A model generated the notes under the pieces. That model did not search any database. It was given only the letters and a program-made list of their open reading frames with translations, and was not told the DNA's origin. Source: Theobroma cacao (Eukaryota; Streptophyta; Magnoliopsida; Malvales; Malvaceae). Taken from it: a stretch of 64,000 bases of DNA. Location of the stretch: contig NC_030853.1 in assembly GCF_000208745.1 (NCBI RefSeq), positions 12,232,097 to 12,296,096 of the forward strand, read 5' to 3'. Made by a program: the position numbers and the translations under genes. This document shows positions 10,120 through 62,260 of this stretch, piece by piece (the first letter of the stretch is position 1; every line of letters begins with the position of its first letter).

Positions 10120-12713
10120 TGTCATGACCTAAATTCGGAGGTTTGTGATTGGCGCACAAGCCTAAAAGGCAAAGCTCGCAAGACCCAAGCAAGCCTCAAA
10201 AATTCAATCACATACCATATAGCTAAGGGATTCCACATTAGAGACATTCATAATTATAATTTAAATTTGAATACATAAAATTATCCCCGGCACATTGTCC
10301 ATATATAATTCTTAACACAATATTCATAAGGCTGCACATTGGCTGACAAACAGGTTTGTACTTTATTATCCTTACACTAGTTAAATGGCATAGCGTGCCT
10401 ACATACATAACAAATATATTGAGAGCAGAAGCTTGTGATAGATTTAGTGGAGTGACCTAATGGGATAGGGACTTACCAAATGCCAAAATTGGTTTGTCAA
10501 TGGACAACCTTTGCCATGTGCTATCCAATGGCCTTTTTATCTACACATGGTACAAAAATGAGTGAGTCATCTAATTCTCAGTAAGAGGTGAAGATAAATA
10601 ACACATATACATACATACATATACACAGCATTATCAATGCTAACCAAGTGCTTTAACAAATATCTCCAATATTAGGGGCATATCATTCATCCTTATGAAA
10701 TCTCTACAAATAGTACATATCAGCTAAACTTATCTATAAAGCCATTCAAAGTTATACTCCATAGGCACAGTCTAGTTTCTAGAATGTTGTATCATATCGA
10801 ATCAAATCAATCTTTGCCTATCCTAGGCTATGTCACATTATCCATAAATCATAATCATAAAGTGGACCTCCTTTGGACATCATCAAATCATGCATGATAG
10901 CCAACCAGTGGAGCCAAATTACGTTCAGGGCAAAGTTGTTGGCGGAGAACAAATCTTGCACGTACCAAAGCAACAAGCAAAGAATTAAAGTCATCATTCA
11001 GAGTAATCTCCCAATGGATGACATCACCTAGAGTATTCTTAGACGGGTGGCATCAAAACACTGCAAGTGAGAATCATAGGCAGGATTAATATCACTATCA
11101 ATGCTTACCACCATCCTTGTAGGCATATAACAAGGTCATAGGGAATAGGACTACACTCAACCTCAAATCAATCTGAAGGAATGCAAATTCCCAAATCAAG
11201 GCCATCATGCCTTGGGTATCACATAGACCACAATGTACATCATAGATCTTCGTTAATGAGCTTCAAACATCTCTAGTTTGATATCTCATCTAGGTGCCTT
11301 TGATTCTCTAAGGCATTAAATAATCAAAATCCACCAAGGGGTTAATTGTCTAGAGTAATCTACTCCTAGATGTTCATCATATCCTCTAGACTTCCTAGTC
11401 GAGGCTAACACAACATGGGCCACTATGTGGCTTACATTAAGGCAAACAACACAACATATAATCACATATATTTTCATTCTCTAGCCTAGGCACATTTCTC
11501 TAGGAAATTACAAATACATATGTAAATTTTTAATCTAGTACCATGGCAGCGCCTTCATCAAGGCATCATGCAACACATGCATTTTAATTAAACCCACTGA
11601 TAGTGATAATCAAAGGCGCCCCTACACCCAAGCTCTAATTGTTAGCTTCCAACCGTCTTACTACTCTCTAACAGGTTAGATGGCTCCAATTTCCATTTAC
11701 ACACATCAAAACACCACAAACATCATAAATCTAATTATTTCATAGCTTTCGAAAATACACAACTTTTCCAAAAATTGCTAAACTCTTTGCAATCTGTTAT
11801 ACAAGCTCAAACCCTTATCTTAGAAGCTGGATTGCACAATCTAGGACCCAAATCTCTAGCTAAAATCAAAAGGGAAGATCACCAAATTTGGAGAAATCGG
11901 ATTTTAAAATTGTTAACCAATTAATTTGAAAATCAATTGGCAAAAACATTTAATCTTACTTACAAAGTGGTTTCCAAAGCTTCAATCAACCCCAAATGGC
12001 TCCAAAAATCTATTTGGGAGGTTAGGGTTTTTGAGCGTTTGAGAGAGAGTGTTTTTTTTTTGTTTTGAGGCTTAAATGGCTCGAATCTCTTTTTTTATTT
12101 TTGCATTTTCGAGGTGATTTATCATAAATGGGAGGCATCTATCGATAGACCTCTCTTAAAAATTTTAGTCTTTGACTTTCATCTAGTGATAAATTCCTCG
12201 AATCTATCGATAGATTATGCCTTAGACCCTCTTCACAATTGTTCCCGTTTAGTTATCTATCAATAAATTTCATGCATTTATCGATAAATACTTTTCAGTT
12301 TGTTTACTTTCCATTTCATGCGATCATCTATGGATAGATTTCGCGGATCTATGGATGGTTTTCGGGCCTCTTTACTTTGCAAGGCTCTCAAGTGGTCATC
12401 TATCCATAGTTGAGAAGATCTATCAAAAGATGTTCATCCAACTTATTTTTCCTGTGCTTTCTGTAGTGCATCGATTGATGGATGTAGAACATTTATCGAC
12501 AAATCCTGCTTAGATTTCATATTTTCACTTTTTTAACCTTTTGCACATATTTCTTTAACTTTCCAACTGATCTTTTATTCAAGCAACACCCCAACTCATT
12601 CGTATATCTGAAAGTTCTCACATATATACCCTCATCTATGATCAAATGCTTAGATCAAAACCTCAAAGTTTTTCAAAACTTACCACTTATCCTTAAATGT
12701 TTAAATGGTGCGC
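10120..12713 (-). mobile_element. 3' LTR (family B) of a deleted chromovirus-like element
   Basis: Starts tgtcatgacc at 10120 and follows the complete family B solo LTR at 59570-62260 throughout. It stops about 120 bp short of that LTR's other end, at roughly 12713, where integrase coding remnants begin. In element orientation (minus) the order gag, RNase H, integrase, LTR is correct, so this is the 3' LTR with its first bases deleted. It carries repeated palindromes around ATCGAT (perfect copies at 12138-12149 and 12201-12216). The exact right boundary is uncertain by about 15 bp. Confidence 0.7.
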
Positions 12714-13306
12714 TCGGATTTGCCATCCATCTGTGGGTGGAAGGTCATACTAAAATCTAATCTTATGCCTAAGCCCTCTCACAATTTCCTCTACAACTTA
12801 CTCTTGAATTATAGTTCTCTATCAGACACTATCGTTACCGTAATACCATGTAGCCTTACAACCTCATTGATATAGATTTGGGCATATTGAGCTACTCTAT
12901 ACTTAGTCTTGATAGGCAAAAAGTGAGCTGACTTAGTTAGCCAATCGATTATCACCTAAATGGCATCGTAACTACCCTTAGCTCATGGCAAACCCGTTAC
13001 AAAGTCCATAGCTACATGTTTCCATTTTCACTATGGTATCGGTAATGGTTGCAATAGTCTTGAAGGTCTTTGAAGTTTAGCCTTCACTTTTTGACAATTC
13101 AAACACCTAGAGACATATTTAGCCATGTCTTTCTTTAATCCTGGCCAGTAGAAAACAAACTTCAAATCATGATACATCTTGGTGGCTCCTGAATGTATCG
13201 CATAGGCTGCCACATGAGCTTCTTCTAGTATCTCATCCCTTAGACTTTCCATGTTCGGCATGTAAACTCTTGATCGATATCTCATTGAATCATTAGTGCC
13301 ACACAT
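12714..13306 (-). pseudogene. Ty3/gypsy integrase remnant (zinc-binding domain and broken core)
   Basis: An open frame at 13306-13031 contains the H2C2 zinc-binding region (ILEEAHVAAYAIHSG, YHDLKFVFYWPGLK, CLNCQKVKA), typical of chromovirus integrase. Below 13031 the core continues in shifted frames: a VAMDFVTG-like start near 13005, a WLTKSAHFLP-like stretch near 12935 and a DRE catalytic-region relative near 12820, with several frameshifts and stops. The sequence ends near 12714, before the C-terminal end and any chromodomain, and joins the LTR directly. Not functional. Confidence 0.8.
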
Positions 13307-13970
13307 AAAGTCTCAAGCTTTATCTTCACTCATGTCTCCAAATATTTTCACCAAATATTCAACCTGATCCTAGGTAACTTTAATTTGATCTAAAATCATC
13401 AATCGAACCCTAAAATGTGCCAATAAGGCATTCAAATTATTAACCTCAAAATGTACTCCTATATTGCCTAGATCATAGAAACTCTGAACCAAAGATCATT
13501 TCTCCACTGTTACGTGTGCCAACCTTCCCATTGACTTCCGAGCAAAGGCATCCATCACCACATTAGCTTTGCTGGGATGGTAGAGTATAGTATAGTCACA
13601 ATCTTTCAACAACTCCAACCACCTATGCTATCTCAAATTCAAATCCCTCTACTAAAATATATACTTGAAACTCTTGTGATTCATATATATTTCACAAGTC
13701 TCTCCATACAAATAATGCCTCTAAATTTTCAAGACAAGTACAATCACTACTATCTCCAGATCATGCGCATGTTAGCTTTGTTCATGCTTCTTTAATTGTC
13801 GGGAGGCATCTGTTATAACTCTTTCGTGTTGCATCAACACACAACTTAATCCAATCCGTGATGCATCACAATACACAATATAACCTCTGGATCCATACGA
13901 CAGAATAAATATAGGTGCAAAAGTGAGATAGGCCTTAAGCTTCTAAAACCTATCTCCAGATCCATATCTG
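13307..13970 (-). pseudogene. Ty3/gypsy RNase H remnant
   Basis: Degenerate minus-strand frames show the gypsy RNase H pattern. A YCDASRIGLSCVLMQ segment lies near 13860 with the family's catalytic Asp. Further along are a SRQLKKHE-like segment near 13800, and a YHPSKANVVMDAFARKS segment near 13560 leading toward integrase. Stops and frameshifts separate the pieces. Upstream, at 14040, lies the gag zinc knuckle, so protease and reverse transcriptase are missing. Confidence 0.72.
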
Positions 13971-14039
13971 CCATTCTAGGAAAAGTATTTACCATTTGAC
14001 TCAGATATTCATGGTTAACCTTTACTGACTACCTTTGTA

Positions 14040-14814
14040 TTGGGCAATCTCTCATCAAATACCTAAGGTAGCCACACCCAAAGCATAACCCAACTACTTT
14101 ATGGGACTGTCCACCATGTGCTTTCTCACTATAATTACACAAAACACCCTTTTCTTTAGGGTCCAAGTTAGATGCTCTACTACACTGCTCCTGTATAGAA
14201 AGTGGGCTAAATGAATCACTATTCCTTGGTGGCCTATGCGTAAGAGTGGTTCCCTCATGACTCTAATGGTGTATCAATGTCAGACTCATAGTCACATCAG
14301 AATCTTTACAGTCCAATTGACCTTGTGTCTAAGCTCTTCGACCCTACCTCTTTCCAATCTAGATTCCATTCTTCTAGTTTCAATCATTCTAGTCATATCC
14401 ACCACTGCCGTATAGGAGGTAAACTTTTATGTGGCAAGAATTCTAAATAGCGGCTCAATTAGTTCCCTAATAAATATGTTTATCCTCTTTTGCTTTGTTA
14501 AGACCAAGTTAGAAGCATATCTTGATAATTGGCTGAACCGTACTTCATACTCCGTCACCATCATGTATAGGGTTTGTACCAACATCTCAAACTCTTGCAC
14601 CTTTGCGTCTCTTATACTCTCAGGTAAAAAGTGATCCAAAAAAGCTTGGACAAACTCTTCCCATGTCATCGAGGCTACTCTAGATAGTCTACTCCTCTTG
14701 AGTGACAGAAACCATATTCTGGCCACATTTTTTAATTTGAATCCCACCAATTCAATTGACTTGTGTGTGGAGAATCCCAAAGCTAAGCATATACATTCCA
14801 TATCCTCCAATTAG
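14040..14814 (-). pseudogene. Gag remnant with damaged zinc knuckle
   Basis: An open frame at 14810-14427 contains a gypsy capsid signature (MTWEEFVQAFLDHFLPESIRD followed shortly by EFEML and VRFSQLSRYA), as in chromovirus gag. The frame then breaks. A nucleocapsid knuckle is recognisable near 14043-14087 as CFGCGYLRYLMRDC: the CX2CX4HX4C pattern with Tyr in place of His (tat for an expected cat). The N-terminal part of gag and the 5' LTR are absent; a Sirevirus LTR begins 26 bp to the right. Confidence 0.78.
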
Positions 14815-14839
14815 GAACTTGATTGTTTCGTCTACTAAT

Positions 14840-17080: not shown

Positions 17081-17857
17081 AAATCATTCAACTATGTTTT
17101 CAACTTTACATACTCAAATAGTTTCGAAAGTGGTGTACCCACTCGCCTCGAAAGTTGATTTTTACCAAGTACGGGAAAGTCTACATTAACAAAATTTTTT
17201 GAGTTTCAACGATTCCTAAACACCAAAATAAATATTTCAGTTAATACTTAGCCTAGGAATTGTGTAATAATTGTTCTATGCTACTTTGAACTATTTGAGT
17301 TTGCCTGAACTAATTTTTTATACTAAATCCATTGCTCATCAAAATACCCATTTAGAGAAACCCATAAAATCAACATTCGTACCTTAAGTGAGCTATAGCA
17401 AGTGAGAAAATCCACCCAAATCCTCTAGTTCACAAACATCAATAATTCTGGAACAATAAACCTTACTTTCATAATTAAAAATCCAAGATTTAAAGATTCA
17501 AGAGTGGGAAAAATCTCATTTTCTCATTTAAAACCCAAAACTAAGCTCAAATCTTTAAAAAATGGTGATTTTGAGCCGAAATGGGTTGTAAGAGCTTAAA
17601 AGTTAGGGTTTTACCTTGCAAATGCAAATGAGGGCTAACAACTCTCAAAATATGTGGTATATTTATGAGGTAGGTTGTGAAAATGCATTTTTACCCCTTT
17701 TATTTTTCTAAAATCGATGAAATGTATTGATACATTTGGCCCATATATTGATAAATTTAGTTTTGGAAAAATTGTATCGATACATTATGAACATGTATCG
17801 ATACATTTGAAATAGAATGCAGTTTCTAAGATAAATTACCTATAAAACCTGTCTAGT
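17081..17857 (-). mobile_element. LTR-like fragment with ATGTATCGATACAT palindromes (family C)
   Basis: No coding frame. The composition (gggttttaccttgc, aaatgagggctaacaact) resembles plant LTR/leader sequence. Within 110 bp (17720-17806) there are four related palindromes; perfect ones are at 17773-17784 (TGTATCGATACA) and 17793-17806 (ATGTATCGATACAT). I could not find both ends, so the boundaries and orientation are guesses. Confidence 0.4.
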
Positions 17858-26821: not shown

Positions 26822-28516
26822 CTATTAGCTTTACTTTTGTTTTGACATGACAAAATTGATTGAACTTAATGACCTGTGAAAATGAATGAAAGATATTTTT
26901 GAATATGAAAAAAATCCTCAAAAGAGTGTTAAAGATGAATTTAAAAGAAAGATATATTGAAATAATTTGATTGTTTGAACATGTTTTGAATATGAAAGAT
27001 CATGTTCTTGAACTTAAAGAAATATCTCTTATTTTTTTCAAAGATCTCTTATTTTCAAAATTCAAAGTGTCAACCTAAGAATCAAGTTCTCAAAAGAAAT
27101 GACTTGATTTTTAAATGAAAGAAAGCAAAATCTATTTCTTTGATTAATGGAAAGAATCGATTCTAGCAAAGAAGAAGTCAGTTCTTAAGCAAATATCAAT
27201 AGTGAAGAATTGATTCTAAGAAACAAAGAAGTCAGTCCTTGAAAGACAAGAACTTCAAGATTTGTGAAGAACTGACACCTTGGAGACAAAGAATCAATTC
27301 TGGAAAGACAGAATACAGAAGGAGAAAAGCAAGAAAGAGAGAATAGATTCTACATTGAGAAAATATCAATTCTTGAAGTACCAAAAATACAATTTAGAAA
27401 CTTAGTGACCAAGAAAGAAATGGAACAACTAGAAAAAAGTAAAGTAGTAAAAATCAAGCTTAAATTCAAATTTTCATGTCAAACCACAATGAAGAATGGA
27501 TACCTTGAGGCAAAGGAATGAATTGTCCAAGATTGTCAAGGTGTCACCTTTGAACCTAGTTGTAGAAGAATCAACATTTCAAAATAAAAGAATCGATTCT
27601 CTAGGGACAAAAAGTTACAAACTTTGCAAAGAACTGACAGCTCAACAATAAAGAATCGATTCTACAAATGGGACAAAAATTTACATGCTGGTTGGAATGT
27701 ACATGAAATGATTCAAATTTCTGTTCAACAGGTAGAAAATCACAAAGTTTATAAATATTCATCTTGAGGGCATTAAAGCAAGAAAAAAAGAGGAATTTGA
27801 AAGAATTTGAATCATCCTTGAAGAAGAAAAGAGTGTAAAAACAAGAGAAAAAGCTGTGAGCAAAAGGTTCTCACCTTTGAGCAAGAAAAGAGACTAAATA
27901 TCACTTTTTTATTCTTTAGCCAATCTTTCTTGATCTTAAACCTTCTTTGATCATCCATATCTCTGTGAAAGCTCTCACTTTTCTAATCCTAAACTTCTTT
28001 ATCAACTTTTTTAGAGATTTTGAGTTAGAGATTCATTAGAATCCACTATTGTATTGGTTATACCTCTAAGCAAAAGGTAGAAGGGTTTTGCTTGATCCTT
28101 TAAAAGACTTCATCTTGTGTAATGGTTGTCCTTAAACTTGAAAAAATGAATGTCTTTGTAAAGGTTATGCCTGATCCTACAAAAGACATGTTGTAAAGGT
28201 TATGCTTGTTTCTGCAAAAGGCATGTTATGAATGTTATGTCTAACCTTGTTGAACAAGCAAGATAATATTGGATTCAAACTCTTTGTGCTATTAAGGGAA
28301 AAGAAGTAGGCATTGGAAGGTCGAACCTTTATAAAAATCCTATTGAGTGCTCTTTATTTTTCTATTCTTTAATCATTCAATTTATACTTTGCTTTGTTGT
28401 TTTATTCCTTTAATTTTTGCTTCATTTTCAAAGATATTCAAAAAAGGGGAAACTTTTACTTAACAAACAATTCACCCCTTCTTGGTAGTTTTACTTTAAA
28501 CTTATCTTTCTAACCA
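26822..28516 (+). mobile_element. Sirevirus-1 5' LTR
   Basis: Starts tattagctttac...tttgacatgacaaaa (a decayed form of the Sirevirus tgttggctct...gatgataataaaac start) and ends just before the primer-binding site at 28518. Length is about 1.7 kb. Its U3 part carries at least six AGAATCGATTCT palindromes; exact copies are at 27153-27164, 27589-27600 and 27652-27663. A TATA-like tttataaat lies near 27741. Between 28060 and 28250 a phrase with 'aaggttatgc...gatcct' recurs three times. The left boundary is inferred. Confidence 0.65.
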
Positions 28517-35602: not shown

Positions 35603-35604
35603 AG

Positions 35605-37218: not shown

Positions 37219-37359
37219 GTTCCTAAAGGATACTATATTGCAACTAACACTCAAGGACCCATCAAAGTATGGGTACCTATAAAGAAAAACCGAAATGCTA
37301 TTTTATAGGTTGAGCTACACTTAAAAGAGGCATGTTCAAGAGCTCAACTCAAGAAGAAG

Positions 37360-39750: not shown

Positions 39751-40607
39751 GAAAACCTTTGACTCTCACATAGAAAACAAAGTGCATTTAGTCGACTAAG
39801 GAATTCTTAGTCAACTGATAGTGGTCTGACAGCATTAAATAGTAAGACTTAGTCAGTTTAGAGAAAGAGGAGTAAAATGAGGTAAAAATTGGGTTTACCG
39901 AGTGCAAAAAGAATGAAGAAAAACTGCCAAAGGTAAAAAACCAAAATTTTAAAGGGAATTTTGAAATTATGAAGAAATAAAAGTAAGGCAGTACTTAAGG
40001 GAAAGTGAGCAGTTTTTCTAAGAAATAATTGCTGACAACCTCTCTTTTTCTCTCCCCTCAAACCCATTGCTCTAAAAACAAAAACCCAAATCTTCCTGTT
40101 TGCCTTTGAAACTGACTCAAACCCTCACCATTAAAAAAAAAAAACTTGGTCAGAAATTTCTGGAATCAAAATGGCTAGAACATCTCAGAGTAAAGAGATA
40201 TCAGAAAAGAAGAAAGGGAAAAAGCCAATGGAGGAAGGAACAAGAACAGAAAGTCTGAAGAAGAAATAAAAAATCATGCCTGCTTTAGTGAAAGAAATAT
40301 CCAAGAAACTAAGAGAAAAGAAGCAGAAAACTAACAAGAAGAAAGATACAGAATCCTCACTCCACAAAGGTACTAGTTCTTCTTCTTTGAAGTTCAGGAA
40401 TAAGTTGCATGAATATAGGTTCAAAAATATTGAGGATGCATCAACCTCCTATGGCAAATTTATTGATTAGAAGAGTTTTACTGAAAATGTATAAATCCAT
40501 ACTAGTTTATCTGAGTACTTTGATGAACTGAAACTAAAAGGTTACAACACCTTTAAGAATAAGTCTTATAGTGCAAGTCTGGTTAAAGAGTTCTATTTTG
40601 GCATTGT
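39751..40607 (+). pseudogene. Sirevirus-2 spacer and extra-ORF remnant
   Basis: The spacer contains a perfect TTAGTCGACTAA palindrome (39788-39799), matching the palindrome family of this element's LTR. A start at 40171 opens MARTSQSKEISEKKKGKKPM, a lysine-rich N-terminus. After a stop, the 40276-40470 frame goes on (basic, then FRNKLHEYRFKNIEDAS). A degenerate continuation to 40607 (ELKLKGYNTF, VKEFYFGIV) parallels the extra ORF of Sirevirus-1 at 52030-52170. The gypsy-like element at 40608 cuts it. Function of this ORF in the lineage is unknown to me. Confidence 0.65.
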
Positions 40608-43250: not shown

Positions 43251-43262
43251 ATCTCCCCCACT
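43251..43262 (-). promoter_or_regulatory. Polypurine tract of the gypsy-like element
   Basis: The minus strand reads agtgggggagat immediately before the LTR start TGTAGTACCC, as expected for the plus-strand primer. Confidence 0.85.
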
Positions 43263-46200
43263 TAAAATGAATTCGTCCTCAAATTCAAATTGGCGTAGGG
43301 TGAATAATCAAAGTTCTAAAGTTCTGCCACATCACTTTTGTCGAGTATTCTGAACATAGAATCTTGGTTTATGCATCATATCGACTTCCAATCTTATAGA
43401 AAACTCGACAAGGTCATAATATATAGTTATGTGCACTACTCTTGTTAGATCAAAACAATATCATCCTTCATCTTATGAAGAGAATTCAAATAAGCTATTA
43501 ATTCTGGTCACACCTCAATCAAATCATCCTTAAATCATTAATTATGCATGTTTACTTAACCATCCGCAACTCCTCTACCTTGCTCCTTTATCAAACCCTA
43601 AAATATTCAAGCATCTATTCCACCATTGACTAGGGGTCTAATTTGTCAACCAATCTCTATTTCATTTTTCATTATCCCATATAAATTCCATTTAAGCATT
43701 TCATAATACATAAGGATCAAATGCTCTTTATTCATTTCATCTATTGTTTTTTTTAATATCAAAGATGATTCAAATCTAGCAACCATTAGTCATCATATTC
43801 CCAAAAACAAACTCCAATATCTTCATGATCAAATGCTCACTAGATAAATCTCAACTTATACCATAAGGCATTTCAATAAATCATGACATTCCACATACCC
43901 CCTTATAATCTTAACCAATCTCTTTAATCAATAACTCAACCTCACAAGATTAAAGTTGCTCAAAATTTTTCCTTTAAGGTTCCTTTCCAAGTCTCATCTT
44001 GATTACTAATCGTTTTCATATTTCCAATGTCGTAGCTAATTTGTTCATCATCAATCACATACAACATATATAACTTGAAATTCTTCAAATTTACTCCAAA
44101 CATCAGATCTCATGGCCTTATTAGTTTATCAATATGAAGATCAAATTAAACATTTATCTCTCCTTAAGTGCACTTTAAAATTTAAAATCATCTATTAAGA
44201 CCTTTCTGATATTAACTTCTTTTAGTCCTTTTAACCTTAGAAAATTAAATCCATAATCATTCATTTTGAATCATGAGCTTTATACCAATCAAGGCAGATT
44301 TTACACTTTTAATTATACGAATTCAAATGCAAACCTTTGCACATAAGCTATAAACATTTCCCCACATCTTTATATATCAAAACTATATTTATTGAAGCTA
44401 TACCAGAACTGATACATCATTTTCCATTGCCCCTTAGGATATTAAATTCATGTCATACTTTTCAATTTGTGTACTTCATAATAACCTAACAATTTCTAGC
44501 TCACAGTTAAGCTAGTTCATATGCCAAGCCTCTCAAGCTATATCAAAACACCAAGTTTTATCACGATATAATAGAATTTGATGAACTCATACCAAAAGTA
44601 TAGACACTTACTTTTAAGCTAACAACATTATAGTCCACTTGTTCACTGCCAAAATCAGTGATAAATTATCTTAATCATTGTCTATCACTATAACCATTGA
44701 TAAAATGTCATCATCGAATCAAATTATAACTAACTCCGCATGAGCGTTTATACCAATATGCAACATATATATCCATACATATATATTTCCAAAAATTTTA
44801 ACTTCGAATAGCCTTAGGCATATCAAGCTCAATAAGCCGTCTGTAAAACCAAAATAACCAACAATCAAGTTTAGAATCATTTCTTCTCTTGGTTGGTTAG
44901 ATCATGCTCATCATTTGTGGTGAATACACAAAGCTGATTTCAATATTCCATTCTCATACAAAAGTCAACCACTAATTGGCACAATCTCCAAACACCATGT
45001 GTTTTATAAGTCGATTTTCTTAGTCAAAATTCATATTGTAGTATTCCAACTTTAGGTCACGTCTCATTACCAAATCTTTACTCGTATACGAGTACTTGAA
45101 TTCTCAAATCATCATCTCTTTTCTAAGTAGATCTCTGCAATTTCCGTAGCGTATTTCTATTCCCTCACCAGTAGTAGTATCATTTAATCAACCCGTGTCA
45201 CCCTCGTTCTCTAAACATTTGAAACACAATTCAACCTTTGCCTACCCTTACCAAGCACTTTACCTTAATAATTACTCAAAATAAATTGAAACTTGTGGGG
45301 GAAACACATTTCACCATTTATGCCTTGCATCTACGAGCATATCGAGACCACAACTTTATCAGATCTAGATATCAGCAAGATAATCGTTGCCTCAAACCAA
45401 CATTTCCATGCACCTTTATATTTGCAACATATTTTTTATTTTTTTTAATTTATTTTTTTTTACTCATGTGGCATATTTGTTACGAGTCCCAACTTAATTA
45501 TACAGCCATTTGCTCTTTGAGCTTTAGTGTTTTCTCATTATGAAAAATCTCTCAAATTTATCTCATCAAGGTATTCACAAAGTGGATACATGTCCATAAC
45601 TTACAGTTCAAGGTCTAAAGCATTGAACACTATCCCATCATTAAAGTTCTACACTATATCATATAATACAAAATATAAGCTAATAACTATGATAGTGAAA
45701 TTCTAAAGTTCCACCTTTATCTACCAATCATAGCTCCCTTTATGAGCACATACTTTATACTGCTTGATTGTTCACAAGCCACTCATGGCCATCCAAATTC
45801 AACCTCTTATAGCAAGTCAAGCTAATATATTCACTTATGCTTTTCCATACACTTCCAAAACACTTAAACACTTCCTTTAATAGGGTTCCATTGAGAACTT
45901 AATCAATCAAAGGCTTATCTTCAAAGCCACTCATAACTTTAATTGTTCATTGTATGCTCGATAACACTTTAGCTCACTAACCCCACTAGACATTATTTTA
46001 AAATCTCCTAAGGTGTTCGTGTTCTTAGTTCGAATCATACCATCTAACTTAGTATAATTGCATTAATTATCCTTAAGCTCTTTATGCTCAGCATATCAAC
46101 ATCCATATTTCCCCCTCATTCATGTTATTGACCTTGTTAAAGTATATGTGGCTTTTCAACCTTTCACAATACATTCTACATTTATGCCAAGGCATTCTCA

Positions 46201-47770
46201 ATCACATGCCAAGCCTATAGTCATGTAATTATAAATCAAGGTAAACTCCCCTATGGGATATCTCCTTCCATATGATGCATGGGGATCACAAGATGTACAA
46301 CTCCAAGTGTATGCCTACATATTGATAACCTCCATATATTTTATGATCATGGAAACCGCAATTTGCAAAACTAGCTTTCTATCACAAGTTTGTGATCGGA
46401 ACATTAGTCTCCACATATCTCACTTTGGACATACTTCACTACCAACATTCATATACCTTTACCACAACATTCAGTGCAAATTGATTAAGCAATGATCTCC
46501 AAATTTACTCTTAGGTACACATATATCAAATTGTACACCACTTAATGTTAAGATCTTGACTTTACTAATCAATTCTTAACCAATTACATCCATAAGATAG
46601 ACAATTCACATAATTTTTGTATCTTGTCTTTGCAGTCATAAGATCAAAATTTCTTAAGCTTAGGATGCAGAAGCTTCCTTTTAAGAGCATATCCGAAAAT
46701 CCACATGTTTTAAGTCCCTTACCTTTGGAAAAGTCACATTCAAGACTAATCATTTACATCATAGGTTGCATATTGAACCAAACATATTTTTAAATTGACC
46801 TTTAAAGCAATTCATATATCGATCTTCATATAGAACTTCATATGGCACTTAGACTAAATTTGTCATTTCCATGTCATTTAATTTCAAACTGCTAAATCCA
46901 CATCTAGTCCTTTAACCCTTTGGCTCCACACTAAGCATAGCAAAATTCAAGCTCATCCTTAAAGTAGATCATTTACTAGCCTTTTACTTCATAACCATAC
47001 ATCATTTATAATAATCAGTGATTTTCACCCTTGAGCTAATTCATGCAATTATAACCATAAACCATAATAATTCAATTCAAGCCTTGGGATCTCGCAGTTA
47101 CTTAATTAGAATCAAAACCAACTCCATCCAAGCTACTACATACATATTCGCATATAAATTATTTCAGAATCCCAACACCATTTCTATAGGGGCATGACAA
47201 GCTCATTTAACGTAGTGCACTTACCTATGTGCACTTAAACGTTGGTTTACACTTTCCTTGATACTTAAATTTATAAATCCCAAGCGAGTCATAACAATCA
47301 CTATTCATTTCAATCAAAATACAGCTCTTATTACCATTATCGTACGTCCTCCCTAGATTGACCTCAAATACAATTCATAGTCTCCAAAATTTTAATTTTT
47401 TTTATAACCATGTGTTCAAATAATAATTCCACCAAATGAATAAATTATTACGAACCTAACAGTCCAACTCCATTTTCCTCCATCCTTAGTCGGAAGAATA
47501 TATCATTATATTGACCTTTCATTAGGAGCATTTGCTTAAAAATCTTTCCAATAATGGTTTGTGTCTCGGATGCATCTCAAACCTGAGCAGCGATACCATT
47601 TATGCCCTTTACATGACAATAGCAAAAGGGTAGGTTACTTGGAATAGGAGTTCATATAGTCTCCTGTCTATGACTTGTGCTGCAATTACAAACCATAGAC
47701 AAGAATCTACATTAACTCTGACAACTCCGCTGGTTGACACGAGAATCCCTAGGACTCGACTAAACCTAGA
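43263..47770 (-). mobile_element. 4.5-kb apparently non-coding interior
   Basis: AT-rich throughout. I found no gag, protease, RT, RNase H or integrase motif on either strand, and the longest open frame is about 100 residues on the wrong strand. Only the first 30 bases next to the polypurine tract resemble the end of a gypsy pol (minus: ttgaatttgaggacgaattc). This points to a non-autonomous large retrotransposon derivative dependent on a relative for its proteins. A heavily decayed coding region cannot be fully excluded without a profile search. Confidence 0.6.
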
Positions 47771-47782
47771 GTTCTAATACCA
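47771..47782 (-). promoter_or_regulatory. Primer-binding site of the gypsy-like element
   Basis: The minus strand reads TGGTATTAGAAC four bases after the LTR end, close to the TGGTATCAGAGC initiator tRNA-Met complement, with C-to-T and G-to-A differences. It confirms minus orientation. Confidence 0.75.
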
Positions 47783-47786
47783 CTTT

Positions 47787-50308
47787 TGTCACGACCCAAT
47801 TTTCGAGTCATGACTGGGGCATAGGCCCAATGGGCATAGCCCACCAAGCCCAAGCAAGCCTATTATATAATCTTGCTCAACATTCTATCAACTATTCTCA
47901 AGTCACCTTTCAGAAGTCCAACTTATAATCACTTTAATAATGGGCTATAGCAATCAAGAATTGCATTAATATAAACCCAAAATGATGCTAACATTTTCAA
48001 CTCATGGTGGCATTAACAGTTAAAATATACATATTTTATCTAAGACACGTATCTTAGTATTTTACATCACATGAACGTATTCATAAAACAAAATTACTCT
48101 TGACTTTCAGCGGTGTAACCACAGTGAAGGTGCGGCTACTAAATGCCAAAATACCTACCAAAAAGACAAAACGATGTGGACACCTCAACCTAGGTTCCAA
48201 CTGCCTCCTGATCTAAAAACATGAAATTGAAAATAGTGAGTACAAACTCAGTGAGTGAACATAAGAAGGGAACAAGCAACGACAAGGAACGTTTTAGAAA
48301 ACATGATGCACTTGTTTTAAAAAAACAATGCAATTGAGTTAATTTCTTCCTAAAAACCCCTCATTTAAAACTTTTATTAATAACCTTATAGTGTTGCAAA
48401 AGCTCATGATCAATCCATGAAGTTAAATGGGTGAAAAATAGGTCAAAATCAAACAAGGTAGCAAGCATGATAGCAAGTTTCTCGCTGCAGTGAGAAACAG
48501 TCTTAGTTTGCATATATTTTGGTTTTTCTAAAATATCTCCTACAAAATACGTCCAATTAACCTGATTTTTAAACCATTAGAAAGATAAGAGGCAGGGCTA
48601 CAACTTTTATGTTTACCATTTTTCCCAGTTCGAACGGGAAGGTGGTCAAAATATTCATTGAAGTGACAGAACTACACTAGAACCTGAGAGTTTCTCGCTG
48701 CAGCAAGAAGCAGGGCACCTAAATGTAAAATGGACCTCCTTTGCACTAAAAATTCATTTGGTGTTGCAATAAAATCAATTTGCAGGAAAAATGGAAAATT
48801 TTCAAGATTCATCATGCCAATTTCAACATGCCATACAATCACATTTTACAATCACACACATTCTATCACATATATATAGATATAATCATATATAACACTT
48901 ACACCAGCCCACCTTCTTCAGCTCTTGTGCACTCCCTACTCGCACACCTCATTATCATCATATAACATCATTTATCATTGCACAACATACATTTAAATAT
49001 GTATACCAACCAAATATAGGAGCACATGAATTCATCCTCTTTACACATTTCACAACTTTTACAACATCAAAGCATTTTTCAAGGGCTTGTTCCCAAGCAC
49101 CCATTTTTAATGAAAAGTTAGATAAAATCATGCAAATAATTCATCTCAACACAATTCTATTTTCCAAAATAATTTTGAAATACAAGTTCACTCACCGGTA
49201 TTGTTGAAACTCTAATCGACTCTAACCTCCACTAATAGTTCAAATGGGCAGGTGAGGCCTTGTTGGAACCTATACACACACAACATCACAACCAACCCAA
49301 ATTGGCATTAATATAATTCTAAAAGCTATTTCTTAACTCAAGTTCAGCTAGTTATTCCTAACTAGCTTTCAATCACCATTAGGTGGCTATTTATTTCACT
49401 ACTCTAGTTACCTTAAAAATGAAAAACAATCTCAACAATAGATTAACTCACCACTCTAATCATCAACCATTATCAACAACTTGAAAATTTGTCCTAATTC
49501 ATTACTCACCTTGGTGGTCTTTTGTAGTTGAATTCCTTTTCAAAAGCTTCCAAGCTATTATGGCAAGTCTCTCTTTCTCTCTCTAAAACTTTCAACTAGT
49601 GAGAGAAAGTGTTGAACAAAGACTTTTGAGGGTTTTAAGGTGGGAGAGTGAAAAAGCACAAAGGTTCTATGAAAAAGTGCACAAAAGCATAAAAATTAGA
49701 GCTAGAGAGAGAAAGTTATGGAAGTTGCAAAGCAAGCTTCCATGGAGGATAAAAGGAACGTGAAATGGGAGGAAGAAGAAGAAGAAGAAGAAGCTGCTGG
49801 AAGCTGTTGGAGCTTAGATATTTATGCTTCAAGTTAATCCAAATTTCCATTGAAATTACCAAAATGCCCTTAACATGGTGGCTTTGTGTTCCTCCCATCC
49901 TTTGTGCAACCTTTTACTCTTTTGACACTGGAGAAAGGTACATAATAGTCTAGAATTACTCGAGTTCACAAAAACATAAAAATTTAGACTCGAGTGCAAA
50001 ATGACCATTTTACCCCTATCATGAAAATTATCATTATTTTTATCTTCTTCATTTATTTACCATCATAAACATCATTCATTCATTCCTTAGGCCTATTTAG
50101 ACCTTAATAGCATAAAAAAAACCCACTCGTAGGAGCCTACCAAGAGAAATTATGAAATTACCCCTGGTCCGTATTATCGCATCTACTTCTAGTTACGTAT
50201 CTATAGAGGTCGAGATTTCATAGGTTCACTTCTAAATTACCCTTTTTAACTCGGTAATTAACCTCAATTAGCATCCATAAACTTTATTAGCCACCGTATC
50301 AAAATACG
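47787..50308 (-). mobile_element. 5' LTR of the gypsy-like element, outer end deleted
   Basis: Starts tgtcacgaccc and follows the 40608 LTR to ccgtatcaaaatacg. There it lacks the last roughly 10 bases and joins Sirevirus LTR sequence. It has lost 40 bp between two palindrome copies (around 48691-48709) and 74 bp of the 37-bp tandem repeat (around 48928). Those two losses account for almost all of its length difference from the 2643-bp partner. Confidence 0.9.
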
Positions 50309-50500
50309 ATATTTGTTAGGAAAATCCTTGGTTGGATAATCAAGGTAGTGGATGTAGGTCTTGGAGACCGAACCACTCTAAATTGTTATGCATCTTGTAC
50401 TCTATTTTTATTTTCTTAAGTTCTGAAAATTAGTTTCCAATATTGTTAAAGCCAAATTGTGCTATTCACCCCCCTCTAGCACATATTATCGGGACCAACA
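50309..50500 (+). mobile_element. Sirevirus-2 3' LTR, last ~190 bp only
   Basis: Matches 35410-35602 of the 5' LTR closely, including the ggaccgaaccactctaaattg-type block and the terminal gggaccaaca. It is followed by the target duplication aaaac. The upstream 880 bp of this LTR and the remaining extra ORF are gone. Confidence 0.92.
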
Positions 50501-51341: not shown

Positions 51342-53594
51342 ATTTAATTTACTTCTATGTAAAATTGGTTTTAAAGTCAAAAGAATTTGAATCGATTAAA
51401 GTTCACTTTAATCGATTAAAATAGTTTTCTGTAAAATTAAGTTTTAAAGTCAAAAGAGTTTTAATCAATTAAATTTCACTTCAATTGATTAAAATGGTTC
51501 TGTGCTTTTCAATTATATTTCTAAATACACTTTAATCGATTAAAGCGTTGGGTTTTAAAATCTACCATTGTTTTTCTCTCTCCTCTCCCACGATTTCTCT
51601 TTAAAAATGATTTCTTTTTAGAAAACATTCAGAACCCAAACCCTTAAATCGACATCTGATCATGAGAAATCACAATCAACCTCTTTAAAATCCTTCCAAA
51701 CTTAAAACCCCCAAATCCAAAAATTGTAAACATCAATTACTATGGAAAAAACTTCTCAAGATGAAACAATGGTAGAAAAGAGAAAAAGAAAGAAAACTAG
51801 TGAGGAAGTTTCAAACCCTTCTAGCAAGAAGAAAGGGAAAATGAGCATGGACACTCCTTCATAAAAGATTGGCACTCACATCAAACACACGACAACAAAA
51901 ACCAAGGGAAAAGGGTCTGTAGGCGCGAAAATCAATGAAGATAACCATCCCCCCTTGGTTTAGAAATAAGGAACATAATGGCAAATTCAAGAAATTTGAA
52001 AATGTAGGGATTACATGTGGAAAGAAGTTTGTCTAGGATAGTTTTACTGAATTTCCTACACATAGTCAAGTCTTTAGACTCTTTGAATCCTTGAAATTGG
52101 TACGATTGAGCTCTATTGATGAATTTAAGTATTGTCTTACCTTGGTTAGGGAATTTTATGCTAGTATTGCTACTAATAAAAAAAGGATCAGAGGATGATG
52201 AGTTGCATGTTTTTGTAAATGGCAAAGAATTTGTTGTCACCCTTGAGGATTTAGGAAAATTACTCAAAACGAAGTACAAAGAGGGTGAATTTGAGATTCC
52301 AAAGGGCTTTGACGTCAACCCAGTTTGGAGAGAAGTTACTAGCAAGGATGAAAATAACCCTCTAAGAGCTATGCAATTAATATTAACAATGGAAAGTTGA
52401 GGTTGCTTCATCACTTTATTACCACTTCACTTCACTGCAGCGCAAGCAGCTTTAGTTATGTCACCCTTCTAAACTTATGGATACTTAGTTGTGCTGTAAA
52501 TGGAACTCCATTTAATATAGCCAAATTTATGATATAGAGGATGAAGGAGGCTTGTAGAAAGGACAAGACAAGTTTCCTTTATGGAAACATTATCACTAAG
52601 TTAGTCAAATAGAAAGGAGCCTGGAATGATAGGTATTTCGATAATTTAATGACAACAAAAATGAGTCATACTAGATTAGCGATCTCAAGAAAATGATATT
52701 CAAACATAGAGGAATCCAATGGGTTAAATAGCCAAAAGGTATTTTAAGAACAAGCACTGTAGAGTTAGAAACCCCTTTCACTCTTCCATCTAGAGTTAGT
52801 CAAGTACCACCCTCCATGGAAATACTTTACATTCTGATGATGATAATTAACGGAAAATTAACTGAAGGTAGCAAGACCTTCTAGGGCCACACTATCAAAG
52901 GGAGAACCTAAACCACAACAAGTTGAAGCTAAGGATGAGATTTTGGATTTAGATGATGAGCATAAGATTAGTATGGCACAGATTCATGCTGACATTAATA
53001 GATCCATCCTTTACAATTCATATCAAGACCCCCAATCTTGACCTACTGTACCTACTAACCCCTCCCCAGCCTTTAGTCTTCACCGCACCAACCTTACCCA
53101 AAACTTAGCCAATTCATCACTTTAACTCTTTCTTTAACCATTTTCTAAGACTCTACTTTATAATGTAGAAAAGGGGAGCTCTTTCTTCTAATGATGACAA
53201 AAAGAGGGAGCAAAAAGAAATATTGTGATTATCTTTGTGTTATGGTTAAATGTAGTTATTATGGTTGTGTGTTGTCGTTGTGTGTACTGATGTACTAAGA
53301 GATAAGAAGTTTTATGACTATCTAATATAGCTTATAACTTTTTTGAAATGTTTACTATATTGCCTAGTTGAATATTGCACATGCCTATACTTGTAAATTT
53401 CTTTTAAGTGCAAAAGGATAGCCTACATGATAAGGAGAAATTCTTGCAAAATTTCTTTAAATTAGATGCACTCACTAAAGGGGAGCAATTCCCATTTTAC
53501 ATAAAGAATTGCTTAAGTTGTTCATACTTAACATAGTAAGGACATTACACTCTTAACTCTAGGGGTTTTTTGTCATCATTAAAAAAGGGAGAGA
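51342..53594 (+). pseudogene. Sirevirus-1 spacer, extra-ORF remnant and polypurine tracts
   Basis: The spacer 51342-51560 has repeated TTTAATCGATTAAA (51407-51420, 51531-51544). A start at 51741 opens a lysine-rich N-terminus (MEKTSQDETMVEKRKRKK) like that of Sirevirus-2. The 52116-52400 frame carries ELHVFVNGKEFVVTLEDLGKLL and GFDVNPVWREV, with an upstream REFYA-like segment in another frame. This resembles the 'putative plant transposon protein' domain often found next to plant retroelements. The rest is stops. Purine-rich tracts at about 53166, 53195, 53476 and 53581 form the multiple polypurine-tract region. Confidence 0.65.
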
Positions 53595-55070
53595 TAGTTG
53601 ACTCCATGTACTCTTGATGATAACAAAAAATTCTTTTTTCCTTAAAGTCTAACTATGTTACTTGAGTGTATAAGGGTAAAATTAGTATATTATTGTTTAT
53701 CTCACATCCCAAATTCTCCATGATAAGTCTCAAGTCCAAAGAAAGTGACGCAAGCAAGATAAAAGACACTTTATGAAGATTAATCAATTAACATTTTAGT
53801 TTGATCAATCGAACAAGTCAAAAAAAATTTAAAGCTTCATAAAAAGATTTTAATCAATCAATTCACAATTTAATCTATTAAAGTAACATTGGAAGGGACA
53901 TTGAGACAAACAAAAAGGTTTTAATTGATTAACACAATGTTTAATTGATTAAATCAACACTAGAAGGCACACTGAGACAAACAGAAAGATTTTAATTGGC
54001 TAACACAAGGTTTAATTGATAAAACAACACCATAAGAGATTATGCAATAGAATTGATTGATTAACCATAGGATTTAATCGATTAAAATTCAAACAGAAGG
54101 TATTTTATCACCTCAAAATGAATATTTAAATTTGAGTTAGCTGTTGAAAGGTGCCAATTTAAGAAATTTGAACCCAAGATGATTTTAATCGACTAAAGAT
54201 CATATTAATTGATTAAAGAGGAAACAGAGAACTTTTAATCGATTAAAGTCAAGTTTAGTCAATTAACTTAGAGCACATGGAGACAAACAAAATGGTTTTA
54301 ATTAGTTAACATCGAGATTAATCAATTAAAGCGAAGCATAGGAAGACAGACAAAAAGCTTTTAATCGATTAAAATCCATATTAATTGTTTAGGCATGCCA
54401 GCTGATATGAATTCAAAAACCACTGCAATACAAAATAATAGGTAGATTTTTCCCAAATTGTCTCTAATGGTCAAATTTCACTTTCCAAGTATAAAAGGGG
54501 TTTCAAACGGTTATAAATGCAAGAGAGAGCCTTCCAAGAGCAAGATTGAGCTAAGTAGAGTCAAAAAGTTCTCCTTTCAAATGTATTTCACTCCTGTTCT
54601 TTGTAAAAGAGTTTGAGCTTAAATTTATATATCTCATATCAGCCAAGTGATCAATTGTAATCCATCTTTTATTTATTTCTTATTTACTTAAAGTGTGCGA
54701 GGCACTCTAAGGGGTAAATTAAGCTTAGGAAAGCTTAGGGAATCTTATAAGAGGTTGGAGTTTAGGTTTAAAGCTCAACTTGTAAAAGCTTGGTGGAAGT
54801 TATAGATTCCACTAGTTTAGTGAAGTTGGGTTGAAAATCCTTGATTGAGAGATCAAGGTAGTGGATATAGGTCAAAGGGACCAAACCACTACAAATATTG
54901 TGCTTTGTCCACTTCTCTTTACCTTTTCCTTGCTTAGTGCCTTTTAACCTCAACAAGTTTTAAACTCTCCATTCCAAAATTCTTCAAAACTTTTTCAAGC
55001 CAAAGTGTTTCCTTCAAAATATTTTTAAGTGCTATTTGCCCCCACTTCTAGCATTCCATTAGGACCAATA
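53595..55070 (+). mobile_element. Sirevirus 3' LTR at the right end of the nest
   Basis: Follows the polypurine tract aaaaaagggagagat and begins tagttgactcc...gatgataacaaaa (decayed tgttgac). It ends cattaggaccaata (decayed ccaaca), about 1476 bp. U3 holds a dozen TTTAATCGATTAAA-type palindromes between 53780 and 54375; exact copies are at 54073-54086, 54234-54247 and 54359-54374. A TATA-like tataaaag is at 54490. It does not visibly match the 5' LTR at 26822. Confidence 0.78.
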
Positions 55071-59569: not shown

Positions 59570-62260
59570 TGTCATGACCCAAACTCGAGGGTCCGTGACA
59601 GGTGCATGAGCTCAGTTGGCGAAGCCCATGGAACACAAGCAAGCCTGAAAATTTCAAATTTCATAATACATAGCCAAAAGTCCTAAATATTCATATTCAT
59701 AAAAGTATTTAAATTCTAAATACAAGTAGTAACCCTTGGTACATTGTTCATACACAATATCTAATACATTATTCATAAAGCCATACATTAGCCAATATAG
59801 TGGGTTCGTACTTTACAACCCATAACTCAAGTTCAAATGGCGCATCGTGCCTACATATTTAACAAGCTAAACCGAACTCCAAAGGCAGAAGCTCATGATA
59901 GATTCAGTAGAGTAGACATGTCAGGATGGGAGCCTACTGGATGTCAAAATTGGTTTGTCAATGGCCGACTCTTGTCACATAGTCTTATGGCCTATTTCTC
60001 TGTACATGGTATAACAAATGGGTAAGTCATCTAGTACTTAGTGAAGGGTGTAGATAAATCAAACATATATATCAGACACATATACAAATATTACATAATC
60101 AATGCAAACAAATGTTCTAACAAACATCTCCAATGTTAGAGGCATATCAATCATCCTTAAGAGTCTCCACAAATAGTATATCACTAGGGTTATCCTCGAA
60201 GCCATATCAAAGTGAATATCCATAAGCACACCCTAGTTGCCAAGGTATTATATTAATTTCAAATCATGTTTATCTAAGCTTGTCCAAAGCTATGTCATAT
60301 CACTCACAATTTAAATCCCAATCGTACAGTGGTCCTACTTAAGACATCATCAAATCACACACGGTGGCCAATCGACAGAGTCAAATCATGCTCAAAGCTA
60401 AACTACTAACAGAGAATCAAATCATGCACATGTTAAAGCAATGGACGAAAAATCAGAGTCATTATTCAGAGTAATCTCCCAACAGATGGCATCATCCGGA
60501 GTAATCTTAAATGAGTGGCATTAAAGCACTAGAAGTGTGAATCACAAGCAGGATAAAACCACAACCCTTGCTTACCACCATCTTTATAGGCAAACACATG
60601 GTCACAAGGTGCAAGACTCCACTAAACCTCAAATTAAATCCACGTTTAAAATATCAGCATCGGACGAATCACAATTTCATGATAAGGCCATCATGCCTTA
60701 GGTATCATCAATACCACATTTCATATCAAATATCTCTCTTTTGAGCTTTAGACATCTTTAGCTTAATCTCATCTAGATGCCCTTAAATCTCTGAGGCATC
60801 AACTGCTCAATATCTTTTAAAGGGTTATTCGTCTAGAGTAATCTACTCCTAAACGTCCATAATATTCACTAGACTTCTTAGTTTAGGCAAAATCAAACAT
60901 AGGCCACTAAGTGGCTTGCTGCAACACACACACATAATTTGTTCTTTAGCCTAGGCATGTTCATCTAGACTTACATACATATTTTAGTGCCATGGCAACA
61001 CATCTATCATGCGTTATTCATCACATGCATTTTAATTAAACCCACTCATAATGACAGTTAAAGGCGCATTCCACCGCCAAACTCTAATCTTTAGCCTCTA
61101 ACCATTCTTTAGCTCACCAACGAGTTAGGTAGCTTCAACCTTCCCTTAAACACATTAGAACATTCAAAAAATATTTATTTCCTAGCTTTCAAAACTATCC
61201 AACTTTTCAAAAATAACTCAATTCAATATATGAGCTCAAATCCTTCAATAATGAGCTAAATGCTTACCTTAGTGGCTAGGTTGCTCAAATCTCAGCTTCA
61301 AATCCCCAGCAAACTCAAGGGAGAAAATCTCACCAAAGTTGGACTAAATTGATTCTAAGTTATTAATAGATTAATTGAAAATCAATAGATAAAAAGGCAT
61401 AATCTTACCTTTAGAAGTGTTTCCTAAGCTTCAATCTACTTCAAATAGCTCCAAAACTCAATTTGAGAGGTTAGGGTTTTGGGGGTTTGAGAGACAAAGG
61501 GTTTGTCTTTTGTTTTGGGTTAAAAATGATACCCCTTAGCCCTTTTTTATTTTTGCATTTTCCAAGTGATCTATCGATAGATGGGAGGCATCTATCGATA
61601 AATTCCTCTAAAAATTTTAGACGTTGACTTTCATTTATCAATAAATTCCTCAAATCTATCGATAGATTATACCCTAGCCCTCTTTCTATTTCTCCATGTT
61701 TGGCCATCTATGGATAGATTCTGTGGATCTATTGATAGATACTTCTCACTTTAGTTTCCATTAATTTCGTTTGACTTTCTATCAATAGATTCCATGGATC
61801 TATCAATTGTTTTCGAGCCTCTTTGCTTCGCAAAGTTCTCAAGTGGTCATTTGTCAATAGTTAAGAGAATCTATTGATAGATGTTCATCCAACTTGTTTT
61901 CCCAAGCTTTCTATCTTGCAACTATCGATAGATCATGCCCATATTTAATATTTTCACTTCCTTAGGTCCCCAAATTCATTCTTAAGGCCTCTAATTCACT
62001 TTGCTTCCATCAAAACACTTCAAATTATTCATATTACTTGAAATCCTTCATACATATACTCAATTATATGATCAAATCTTGATCAAAGTATCAAACTTTA
62101 ATGTTTACCAAATATATTCATAAAAATTTGCTTAAGTATCATTAGGCATGCTTCCACATACTTAACATATTCAATCTATCATCAAAGTCTTCATTACACA
62201 ATATATTTCATAAATCATTCTCAGTTAACCTAGTTTACACCGAAAATTGAGGGTGTTATA
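59570..62260 (-). mobile_element. Solo LTR, gypsy family B, TSD ggttt
   Basis: Starts tgtcatgaccc, ends gggtgttata, 2691 bp, flanked by perfect ggttt duplications (59565-59569, 62261-62265). The LINE reading continues directly across the empty site, confirming the ends. It carries ATCTATCGATAGAT palindromes: 61569-61582 and a 16-bp AATCTATCGATAGATT at 61653-61668, plus several decayed ones through 61930. It is the complete reference for the copies at 10120 and 32621. Confidence 0.92.

Follow-up and report, generated by a model that had tools for sequence, protein, structure and literature searches.

Palindrome arrays with helical spacing in copia and gypsy LTRs of Theobroma cacao

We find that LTRs of both the copia and the gypsy superfamily in Theobroma cacao carry arrays of short palindromes, each array built on one core (homogeneity tested for two motifs), in which neighbouring sites are phased with a period of about 10.2 bp. 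The analysis covers a stretch of 64,000 nucleotides, called the window, together with its flanks (200 kb) and genome-wide motif counts. The feature shared among the families is this geometry and not, as the first-pass annotation of the window had proposed, a common TCGA centre. Our preferred reading, to which we assign a probability of roughly 55%, is that the arrays are putative sequence-specific homodimer sites aligned along a single face of the helix, forming a U3 enhancer upstream of the TATA box. Few parts of LTR retrotransposons change as fast as U3, and we know of no U3 feature common to both superfamilies, the TATA box apart.

Results and Discussion

The arrays and the associated elements in the window are as follows.

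12136..12340, minus strand: rm5a array (AATCTATCGATAGATT and variants), gypsy LTR
13034..14810, minus strand: broken gypsy coding stretch adjoining the rm5a LTR, with gag, RNase H-like and integrase H2C2 fragments
17721..17807, minus strand: rm4f array (ATGTATCGATACAT), three sites, spacings 50 and 21, LTR fragment
27153..27664, plus strand: rm1 array (AGAATCGATTCT), six sites, TATAAA 87 bp downstream
32492..32607, plus strand: rm2a array, four sites, spacings 41, 21 and 40
34528..50500, plus strand: Sirevirus-type copia element, outer limits, 5-bp target duplication AAAAC
34859..34872, plus strand: rm3 site with one mismatch, in the 5' LTR (34528-35603) of the element 34528..50500
39787..39800, plus strand: rm3 site TTTAGTCGACTAAG, downstream of the copia RT, either in an LTR or in a linker
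41516..41567, no strand assigned: rm7 pair, two copies of TCGCTGCAGCGA 40 bp apart, in the LTR-like repeat 40587-43239
51387..51545, plus strand: rm2b array (TTTAATCGATTAAA), five sites, spacings 20, 53, 20 and 51
53869..54373, plus strand: rm2c array, ten sites, Sirevirus-type LTR, TATAAA 117 bp downstream
61568..61934, minus strand: rm5b array, eight sites, spacings 21, 64, 52, 21, 50, 92 and 51

Gypsy integrase, RNase H and gag fragments adjoin the rm4 and rm5 LTRs, which bears out the earlier claim that the palindromes occur in both superfamilies. Two fragments of the broken coding stretch have Pfam matches (PF17921 and PF03732/PF19259), and 13580-13954 is similar to an RT-RNaseH ORF. The rm5a LTR-like block (10120-12483) aligns with 59570-61933 at 71%, and its 14-bp sites start at 12137, 12202, 12255, 12276 and 12326 (spacings 65, 53, 21 and 50). 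The rm4f fragment is homologous to the rm4b LTR, which adjoins gypsy coding remains on L006. Further gypsy LTRs, those of rm7, hold arrays of the TGCA-centred palindrome TCGCTGCAGCGA; an ORF inside the rm7 LTR pair is 64.5% identical over 200 residues to a gypsy RT-RNaseH ORF, an assignment by similarity only.

On the copia side, the rm1 array lies upstream of copia-like remains (29132-31813). The Sirevirus-type element has a PBS-like site at 35605 and a Pfam RVT_2 match at 38271-39161, and another LTR pair (40587-50307) is probably nested in its 3' LTR. At 54780-54935 the LTR of rm2c is similar to the rm3 LTRs, and the rm2a array has the edge of an rm5-type gypsy LTR nearby (about 32615-32623). 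The rm2b array is upstream of 52481-52636, which resembles an ORF judged env-like from its position; an rm3 site at -42869 lies between the RT and the env-like-by-position ORF, whose Transposase_32 match is far below the cutoff. No known RNA family reaches the gathering score in the window.

The families had been described as five unrelated ones. However, the rm2 and rm3 LTRs (copia) have common stretches of 105-160 bp at 72-76%, and the rm4e and rm5 LTRs (gypsy) have 523 bp in common at 75%. The family-specific flanks of the palindromes, also claimed, are supported. Exact copies in the window number three for AGAATCGATTCT (27153, 27589, 27652), five for TTTAATCGATTAAA (51407, 51531, 54073, 54234, 54360), two for AATCTATCGATAGATT (12201, 61653), one for ATGTATCGATACAT (17793) and one for TTAGTCGACTAA (39788), the sole 1-mismatch copy of the last being 4.9 kb off, at 34859. 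With at most two mismatches, ten sites are found in rm2c, six in rm1 and five or six in each rm3 LTR. The reported repetition within a few hundred bases stands in the window, with mismatches allowed, for four of the five motifs; it fails there for TTAGTCGACTAA, though LTRs in the 200-kb flanks carry this motif repeatedly.

Palindromes and Chance

The window contains 89 exact palindromes of at least 12 bp, and 17 of these are TCGA-centred, compared with 0.5-0.9 expected from Markov simulations of order 1-3. The flanks (200 kb) give 20 against 1.9-2.6. The TGCA centre is also in excess (6 against 2 in the window, 15 against 4.2-4.7 in the flanks), as are GGCC in the flanks (6 against 1.4-1.6) and, weakly, CCGG (2 against 0-0.1 in the window, 0 in the flanks). 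The ATAT and TATA centres are likewise above expectation, which we ascribe to microsatellites. The full 264 kb contains 31 clusters in which one 10-bp palindrome is repeated identically, 11 of them TCGA-centred and three of CGCTGCAGCG, whereas ten order-3 simulations gave 1-7 clusters per run and none with TCGA. Nearly all TCGA palindromes (35 of 37) fall within the first 204 kb, where transposon remains abound, and two in the last 60 kb (49.6 kb of non-N sequence).

The excess of palindromes is genuine and well beyond what chance would give. The window is both AT-rich and repeat-rich, and this favours the view that AT-rich repetitive DNA alone produces such palindromes. In our judgement that view is refuted and its probability negligible, because the Markov nulls, the reversed-pattern controls and the control palindrome ATTCGAAT (see below) all stand against it.

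Spacing of the Sites

Neighbouring palindromes are mostly 20-22, 30, 39-41, 50-53, 60-64 or 70-73 bp apart. The best period is 10.1-10.35 bp, separately in the copia, gypsy-TCGA and TGCA motifs: 10.35 for local copia (33 distances), 10.25 for local gypsy-TCGA (30 distances) and 10.25 for rm7 (22 distances), where the independent events are fewer than these counts since many distances come from related copies (e.g. two rm3 LTRs, one region). The helical phasing of neighbours fades or disappears if the count is confined to exact repeated palindromes, of whatever kind; all 23 of them score only 0.04-0.15, and exact palindromes alone, 16 with at least two G/C, score only 0.38 at 10.3, with a higher peak of 0.57 at 6.6.

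Genome-wide, pairs of TATCGATA number 1665 against 76 for the reversed pattern (1965 against 22 at 41-71 bp), those of CGCTGCAGCG 470 against 0, those of AGTCGACT 306 against 4 and those of AATCGATT 95 against 19. Among the first 50 genome pairs listed for each motif, distances of 20-21 bp account for 35 with TATCGATA (the pairs listed also include 19, 29, 33, 35, 36 and 37 bp), 45 with AGTCGACT and 32 with AATCGATT, the remainder of the last being scattered; for CGCTGCAGCG, 48 of the 50 are at 20-22, 30 or 39-40 bp.

The array cores are RTCGAY or CTGCAG, and each array has one core with dyad-symmetric sites, a homogeneity tested genome-wide for one motif pair: mixed AATCGATT-TATCGATA pairs are no more frequent than their reversed pattern (5 against 5, both strands summed), meaning that these two motifs do not mix. 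This permits the self-identity tag that had been suggested as a function, and does not demonstrate it. The TCGA-centred control ATTCGAAT gives 9 against 21 and forms no arrays genome-wide. We reject TCGA as the shared element, because gypsy LTRs carry TCGCTGCAGCGA with the same spacing and because ATTCGAAT is without arrays. Also rejected for this genome is a Vitis-type RM, as GGTCGACC pairs are absent genome-wide (0 against 2 for the reversed pattern).

The distances could instead be a fossil of tandem duplication, in which a repeat unit, either 21 bp or about 73 bp (20+53) long, was amplified in each lineage, carrying the palindrome along, with the helical phase unselected. Sirevirus-type arrays indeed repeat a 20/53 pattern, tandem units of about 71 bp are seen at 53841-54036, and many of the genome matches, above all those of AGTCGACT, come from copies of a single family whose linkers are alike. 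We nevertheless consider this origin unlikely. The same set of distances recurs in three motif classes and two superfamilies, and spacings of 30, 40 and 60-64 bp fit no single unit except one of about 10.2 bp. Many linkers are unlike; in the 20-22 bp pairs the linker length is kept and the sequence is mostly different, with some linkers recurring within a family. Furthermore, a nearby TAATTAATTA array has another period (35-37 bp), and 388 blocks of repeated, non-palindromic 10-mers from the same DNA lack the 10.2 period (score -0.03).

Position in the LTR

A TATAAA lies at most 150 bp downstream, in sense orientation, of 9 of the 13 arrays and upstream in sense of none, compared with a background of 12% of random 150-bp stretches. 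By superfamily it is found for all five copia arrays, three of which are rm3, and for four of the eight gypsy arrays, where the orientation of rm6a was itself taken from its TATA. The four arrays with no TATAAA downstream are rm4f, rm5a, rm5b and rm6b; in rm4f and rm6b it is on the upstream side, reading outward.

In the few LTRs with ends that can be fixed, the arrays lie in U3. Gypsy LTR 5' ends were located near -88387 and 94164; measured inward from these ends, the rm4b site is at about 535-550 bp and the rm6b array at about 200-300 bp. The rm7 arrays are about 1.65-1.9 kb inside a 2.75-kb LTR, away from the U3 start; like the four arrays lacking a downstream TATAAA, this counts against the enhancer reading.

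Proposed Mechanism

In the enhancer reading, each palindrome would bind one dimer, and dimers two to seven helical turns apart would lie on the same face of the DNA and could bind cooperatively, so that the array would drive LTR transcription. A dimeric-factor site, one of the functions offered in the first-pass annotation, is supported as the likeliest, putative function. GARP/type-B ARR, GATA, HD-Zip, LBD, ARF and DREF-like binders were considered; none is supported and none is claimed. The change of palindrome between families with the geometry kept may reflect a constant architecture of the factor, a coactivator or the nucleosome. More speculatively, a period nearer 10.2 than 10.5 would suit sites that all face outward on a nucleosome.

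A further-reaching version, which we hold to be distinctly unlikely, is that one phased-array promoter is common to both superfamilies and that its lineage-specific palindrome acts as a password tracking fast-evolving dimeric host or element factors, perhaps on a nucleosome. If true, the arrays would license transcription, or escape from silencing, in a lineage-specific way.

A shared spacing rule with interchangeable palindromes would allow LTR enhancers to be found independently of sequence, would make a precise prediction for binding and half-turn insertion tests, and would offer a handle on the activation or shielding of elements in a crop tree.

The palindromes might also act in the LTR transcript or as single-stranded DNA, with hairpins or pairing between palindromes giving rise to small RNAs or to dimerisation of the genome. 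The folding of three arrays is more stable than that of their shuffled versions (z -5.7, -3.8 and -3.0), as expected of palindrome arrays, and the LTR palindromes of maize Sireviruses are described as small-RNA mapping hotspots (Bousios et al. 2016, Genome Res, as cited in PMC5311732). We find this quite improbable, however. At 165 sites with at most four mismatches, 180 changes are single and 7 complementary, with about 4.9 expected by chance; covariation inside the palindromes has no clear excess and was rejected, although selection would be invisible in old dead copies. In addition, helical phasing is superfluous for pairing, and mixed palindromes would do equally well, yet the two tested motifs are unmixed.

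The arrays contain 1-10 CpG each, and 28 of the 35 central CpG changes are C>T or G>A. This decay, as in methylated DNA, suggests past methylation of the palindrome centres; the methylation-linked switch that had been envisaged finds no support in it. The same decay would suit an anti-silencing role, in which the arrays are recognition sites of a VANC-like factor that demethylates LTRs with the right motif. We know of no such accessory gene common to copia and gypsy, which counts against this role, and we rate it as very improbable. VANC targets of VANDAL elements resemble the present arrays in being dense, family-specific, non-coding and shaped by tandem duplication, but their motifs have a single orientation and are not described as palindromic in the available text of PMC5735166.

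Comparison with Known Systems

The VANDAL elements are, moreover, DNA transposons with their own binding protein (PMC5735166). A variable region, in length and sequence, in the 5' part of gypsy LTRs has been suggested as a moving silencing target (PMC4029996, 2014) and is comparable to the arrays in position; the text available from that paper differs in having no mention of palindromes or of tandem or inverted repeats, and its eudicot Del elements are reported to have no CpG island. The maize Sireviruses likewise have complex palindromes in the LTR regulatory region, as cited in the accessible part of PMC5311732, but described there for copia families.

Among open-licence papers, in the matches listed, we found no account of gypsy arrays or of helical phasing. 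The Sirevirus palindromes to which the first-pass annotation referred are already in print: in the available text of Bousios et al. 2010 (PMC2829016), RM boxes are palindromic, present in many copies (at least eight per element) in the upper LTR and upstream of the TATA, with extra copies before the env-like gene; they form CpG islands, and their spacing is not discussed there. The cacao arrays are similar in being palindromic, repeated in the LTR and upstream of the TATA. According to the same text, a CGG-CCG core is present in all RMs but that of Tnd-1, and two of the RMs listed are TCGA-centred, ACAATCGATTGT (Tnd-1) and CGGTCGACCG (Vitis). The cacao cores AATCGATT, AGTCGACT, TATCGATA and CGCTGCAGCG depart from CGG-CCG, as does the Tnd-1 exception. 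Finally, the RM is called Sirevirus-specific relative to classic copia elements in PMC2829016, whereas in cacao the repeated palindromic LTR motif that serves as the RM criterion is found in copia and also in gypsy LTRs.

Results

All five palindromes of the first-pass annotation are present in the window, and they are called rm1 to rm5 in the following, while a letter suffix denotes an individual array or LTR of a motif. Coordinates are those of the window, with negative values and values above 64000 lying in the 100-kb flanks. The motifs are:

rm1: AGAATCGATTCT, 3 exact copies in the window
rm2: TTTAATCGATTAAA, 5 exact copies
rm3: CTTAGTCGACTAAG, 1 exact copy
rm4: AATGTATCGATACATT, 1 exact copy
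rm5: AATCTATCGATAGATT, 2 exact copies
rm6: AAGTATCGATACTT
rm7: TCGCTGCAGCGA, used as scan pattern

The window contains 17 TCGA-centred palindromes of at least 12 bp, compared to 0.5-0.9 expected, and the flanks (200 kb) contain 20, compared to 1.9-2.6 expected. The arms are oddly long, as in the 264 kb they reach at least 5 in 43 TCGA palindromes and at least 6 in 37. Genome-wide, TTTAATCGATTAAA occurs 158 times and its reversed word 19 times. When 2 mismatches were tolerated (3 for 16-mers), the scan of the 264 kb yielded 129 motif sites, grouped in 21 arrays of at least two sites.

Superfamilies of the LTRs

The rm3 LTRs are classified as copia, because they are matched by the LTRs of an element (34528-50500) that has RVT_2 and zinc-knuckle domains inside. 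Copia-like remains are found downstream of rm1, where the sole Pfam match is Pol_BBD, below the cutoff. The Sirevirus identity is a name from the first-pass annotation that we also infer here. The rm4 and rm5 LTRs are assigned to gypsy, since SH3_Tf2-1, Integrase_H2C2, RT_RNaseH and gag domains adjoin them, and rm6 is placed there solely by the similarity of a neighbouring stretch; the ORF adjoining rm6 has no Pfam match. The gypsy elements here may be of chromovirus or Del/Tekay type. Superfamily was set by motif alone for five small arrays (-12505, -12080, 92254, 101583 and 154019). Three other coding or coding-like stretches were observed:

63193 to 66242 (in flank piece L015): remnant of a copia-like element on the minus strand, far removed from the Sirevirus type, with 27-34% identity to proteins of the Sirevirus-type element
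135144-136226 (L022:1144-2226): 361-aa open frame that by eye looks like a LINE-type reverse transcriptase
-44423..-43788 (L010:5577-6212): 212-aa ORF 3' of a copia RT, in an env-like position, with only a sub-threshold Pfam match, Transposase_32

The palindromes had been attributed to five unrelated families, a number that has to be reduced. The rm2 and rm3 LTRs have stretches of 105-160 bp in common at 72-76%, and the rm4e and rm5 LTRs have 523 bp in common at 75%. With related LTRs merged, two superfamilies and a few clades are left. The proposed common TCGA centre does not hold either: rm7 arrays, which have another palindrome at the same spacing, occur in a gypsy-like LTR pair, and TCGA is therefore not the rule. 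Such arrays are found at other places also, and CGCTGCAGCG is among the listed clusters of repeated palindromes. LTR pairs with rm7 palindromes include:

-65839..-63088 / -57966..-55244: LTR pair with rm7 arrays, a gypsy-like RT between and a 5-bp target duplication
40587-43239 / 47768-50307: large LTR-like pair also carrying rm7 palindromes, in which neither coding nor a target duplication was found, probably inside the 3' LTR of the Sirevirus-type element at 34528-50500

Spacing of the sites

Neighbouring sites in the 264 kb follow a period close to 10.3 in all three classes, and in 5000 trials each the jittered nulls never reached the observed score.

Neighbour distances in the 264 kb (last column: stricter count, at most 1.1 bp from a multiple of 10.3; chance 21%)
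Class; distances; best period (bootstrap); jittered-null period; stricter count
copia; 33; 10.35 (10.20-10.45); 10.5; 21/33
gypsy TCGA; 30; 10.25 (10.15-10.40); 10.5; 18/30
rm7; 22; 10.25 (9.92-10.35); 10.3; 12/22

In the same DNA, non-palindromic repeats do not show the period. Exact palindromes by themselves are scarce, and their period is weak or absent, which counts against phasing. Outside the 8-bp core, letters can vary between adjacent sites. A TAATTAATTA-type array at -74647..-74434 (L007:5353-5566), a plain tandem repeat with a 35-37 bp period, falls outside the phasing rule.

Genome-wide distances were taken from the first 50 matches listed per search, in contig order, and are thus samples; the lists hold repeated copies of single families and are therefore not 50 independent events each.

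Genome-wide distances among the first 50 matches listed
Core; contigs covered; distances
TATCGATA; C1; 35/50 at 20-21 bp
AATCGATT; C1-C5; 32/50 at 20-21 bp
AGTCGACT; C1-C2; 45/50 at 20-21 bp
CGCTGCAGCG; C1-C2; 26 at 20-22 bp, 6 at 30 bp, 16 at 39-40 bp, 2 other

At 41-71 bp, the listed TATCGATA matches peak at 41, 52, 60-61 and 71, with a score of 0.63, whereas none of 2000 nulls scored above 0.47. Among the matches listed, linkers are varied for TATCGATA and AATCGATT, and less so for AGTCGACT and CGCTGCAGCG. Reversed patterns, ATTCGAAT and GGTCGACC served as controls for the pair counts. Pairs made up of one AATCGATT and one TATCGATA are no more frequent than expected by chance: these two cores do not mix.

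Position and decay

The gypsy PPT/LTR junction GGGAGAA-TGTGAAATCCC (minus strand) places LTR 5' ends near -88387 (0 mismatches) and 94164 (3 mismatches), and two LTR pairs have a similar junction, with 3 or 4 mismatches, at their edges. Measured from the gypsy LTR 5' end, the rm4b site is ca 535-550 bp inside and the rm6b array ca 200-300 bp, while rm7 arrays are deeper in the LTR. For RM, the repeated motif of Sirevirus LTRs, PMC2829016 gives 200-400 bp as the beginning of the clusters. TATAAA follows the array in 9 of 13 arrays.

In 74 sites from 15 arrays, the central C is changed 22 times and the central G 13 times, 28 of these 35 changes being C>T or G>A, and the T and A beside them show one change altogether. 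This pattern is methylation-type decay, with the core conserved.

LTR elements were noted in or close to palindromes at several places:

-98876..-88936 (L005:1124 to L006:1064): element with large LTRs (target duplication TGTAT), located within one of the palindromes of an rm4 array
-49554: rm4 array, ca 45-50 bp from the start of a Sirevirus-type LTR
32594-32623: end of an rm5-type gypsy LTR, at most ca 15 bp from an rm2 palindrome of a copia element

With the two rm4 cases in view, palindrome arrays may be integration hot spots; according to the title of PMC6911290, LTR retrotransposons often target palindromes.

Discussion

Dyad symmetry, helical phasing and a place upstream of TATA would together be the expected look of cooperative homodimer sites. 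The surprise is that distantly related elements hold the geometry and swap the letters. The Sirevirus half of this is already known. Our searches of open-licence papers on the subject turned up no account of arrays in gypsy LTRs, of the TGCA class of palindromes or of the phasing.

TATCGATA, which forms the core of these gypsy arrays, is bound by DREF. Partners of DREF are reported (PMC3726405) as regulators of telomere retrotransposons in Drosophila. We claim no plant link.
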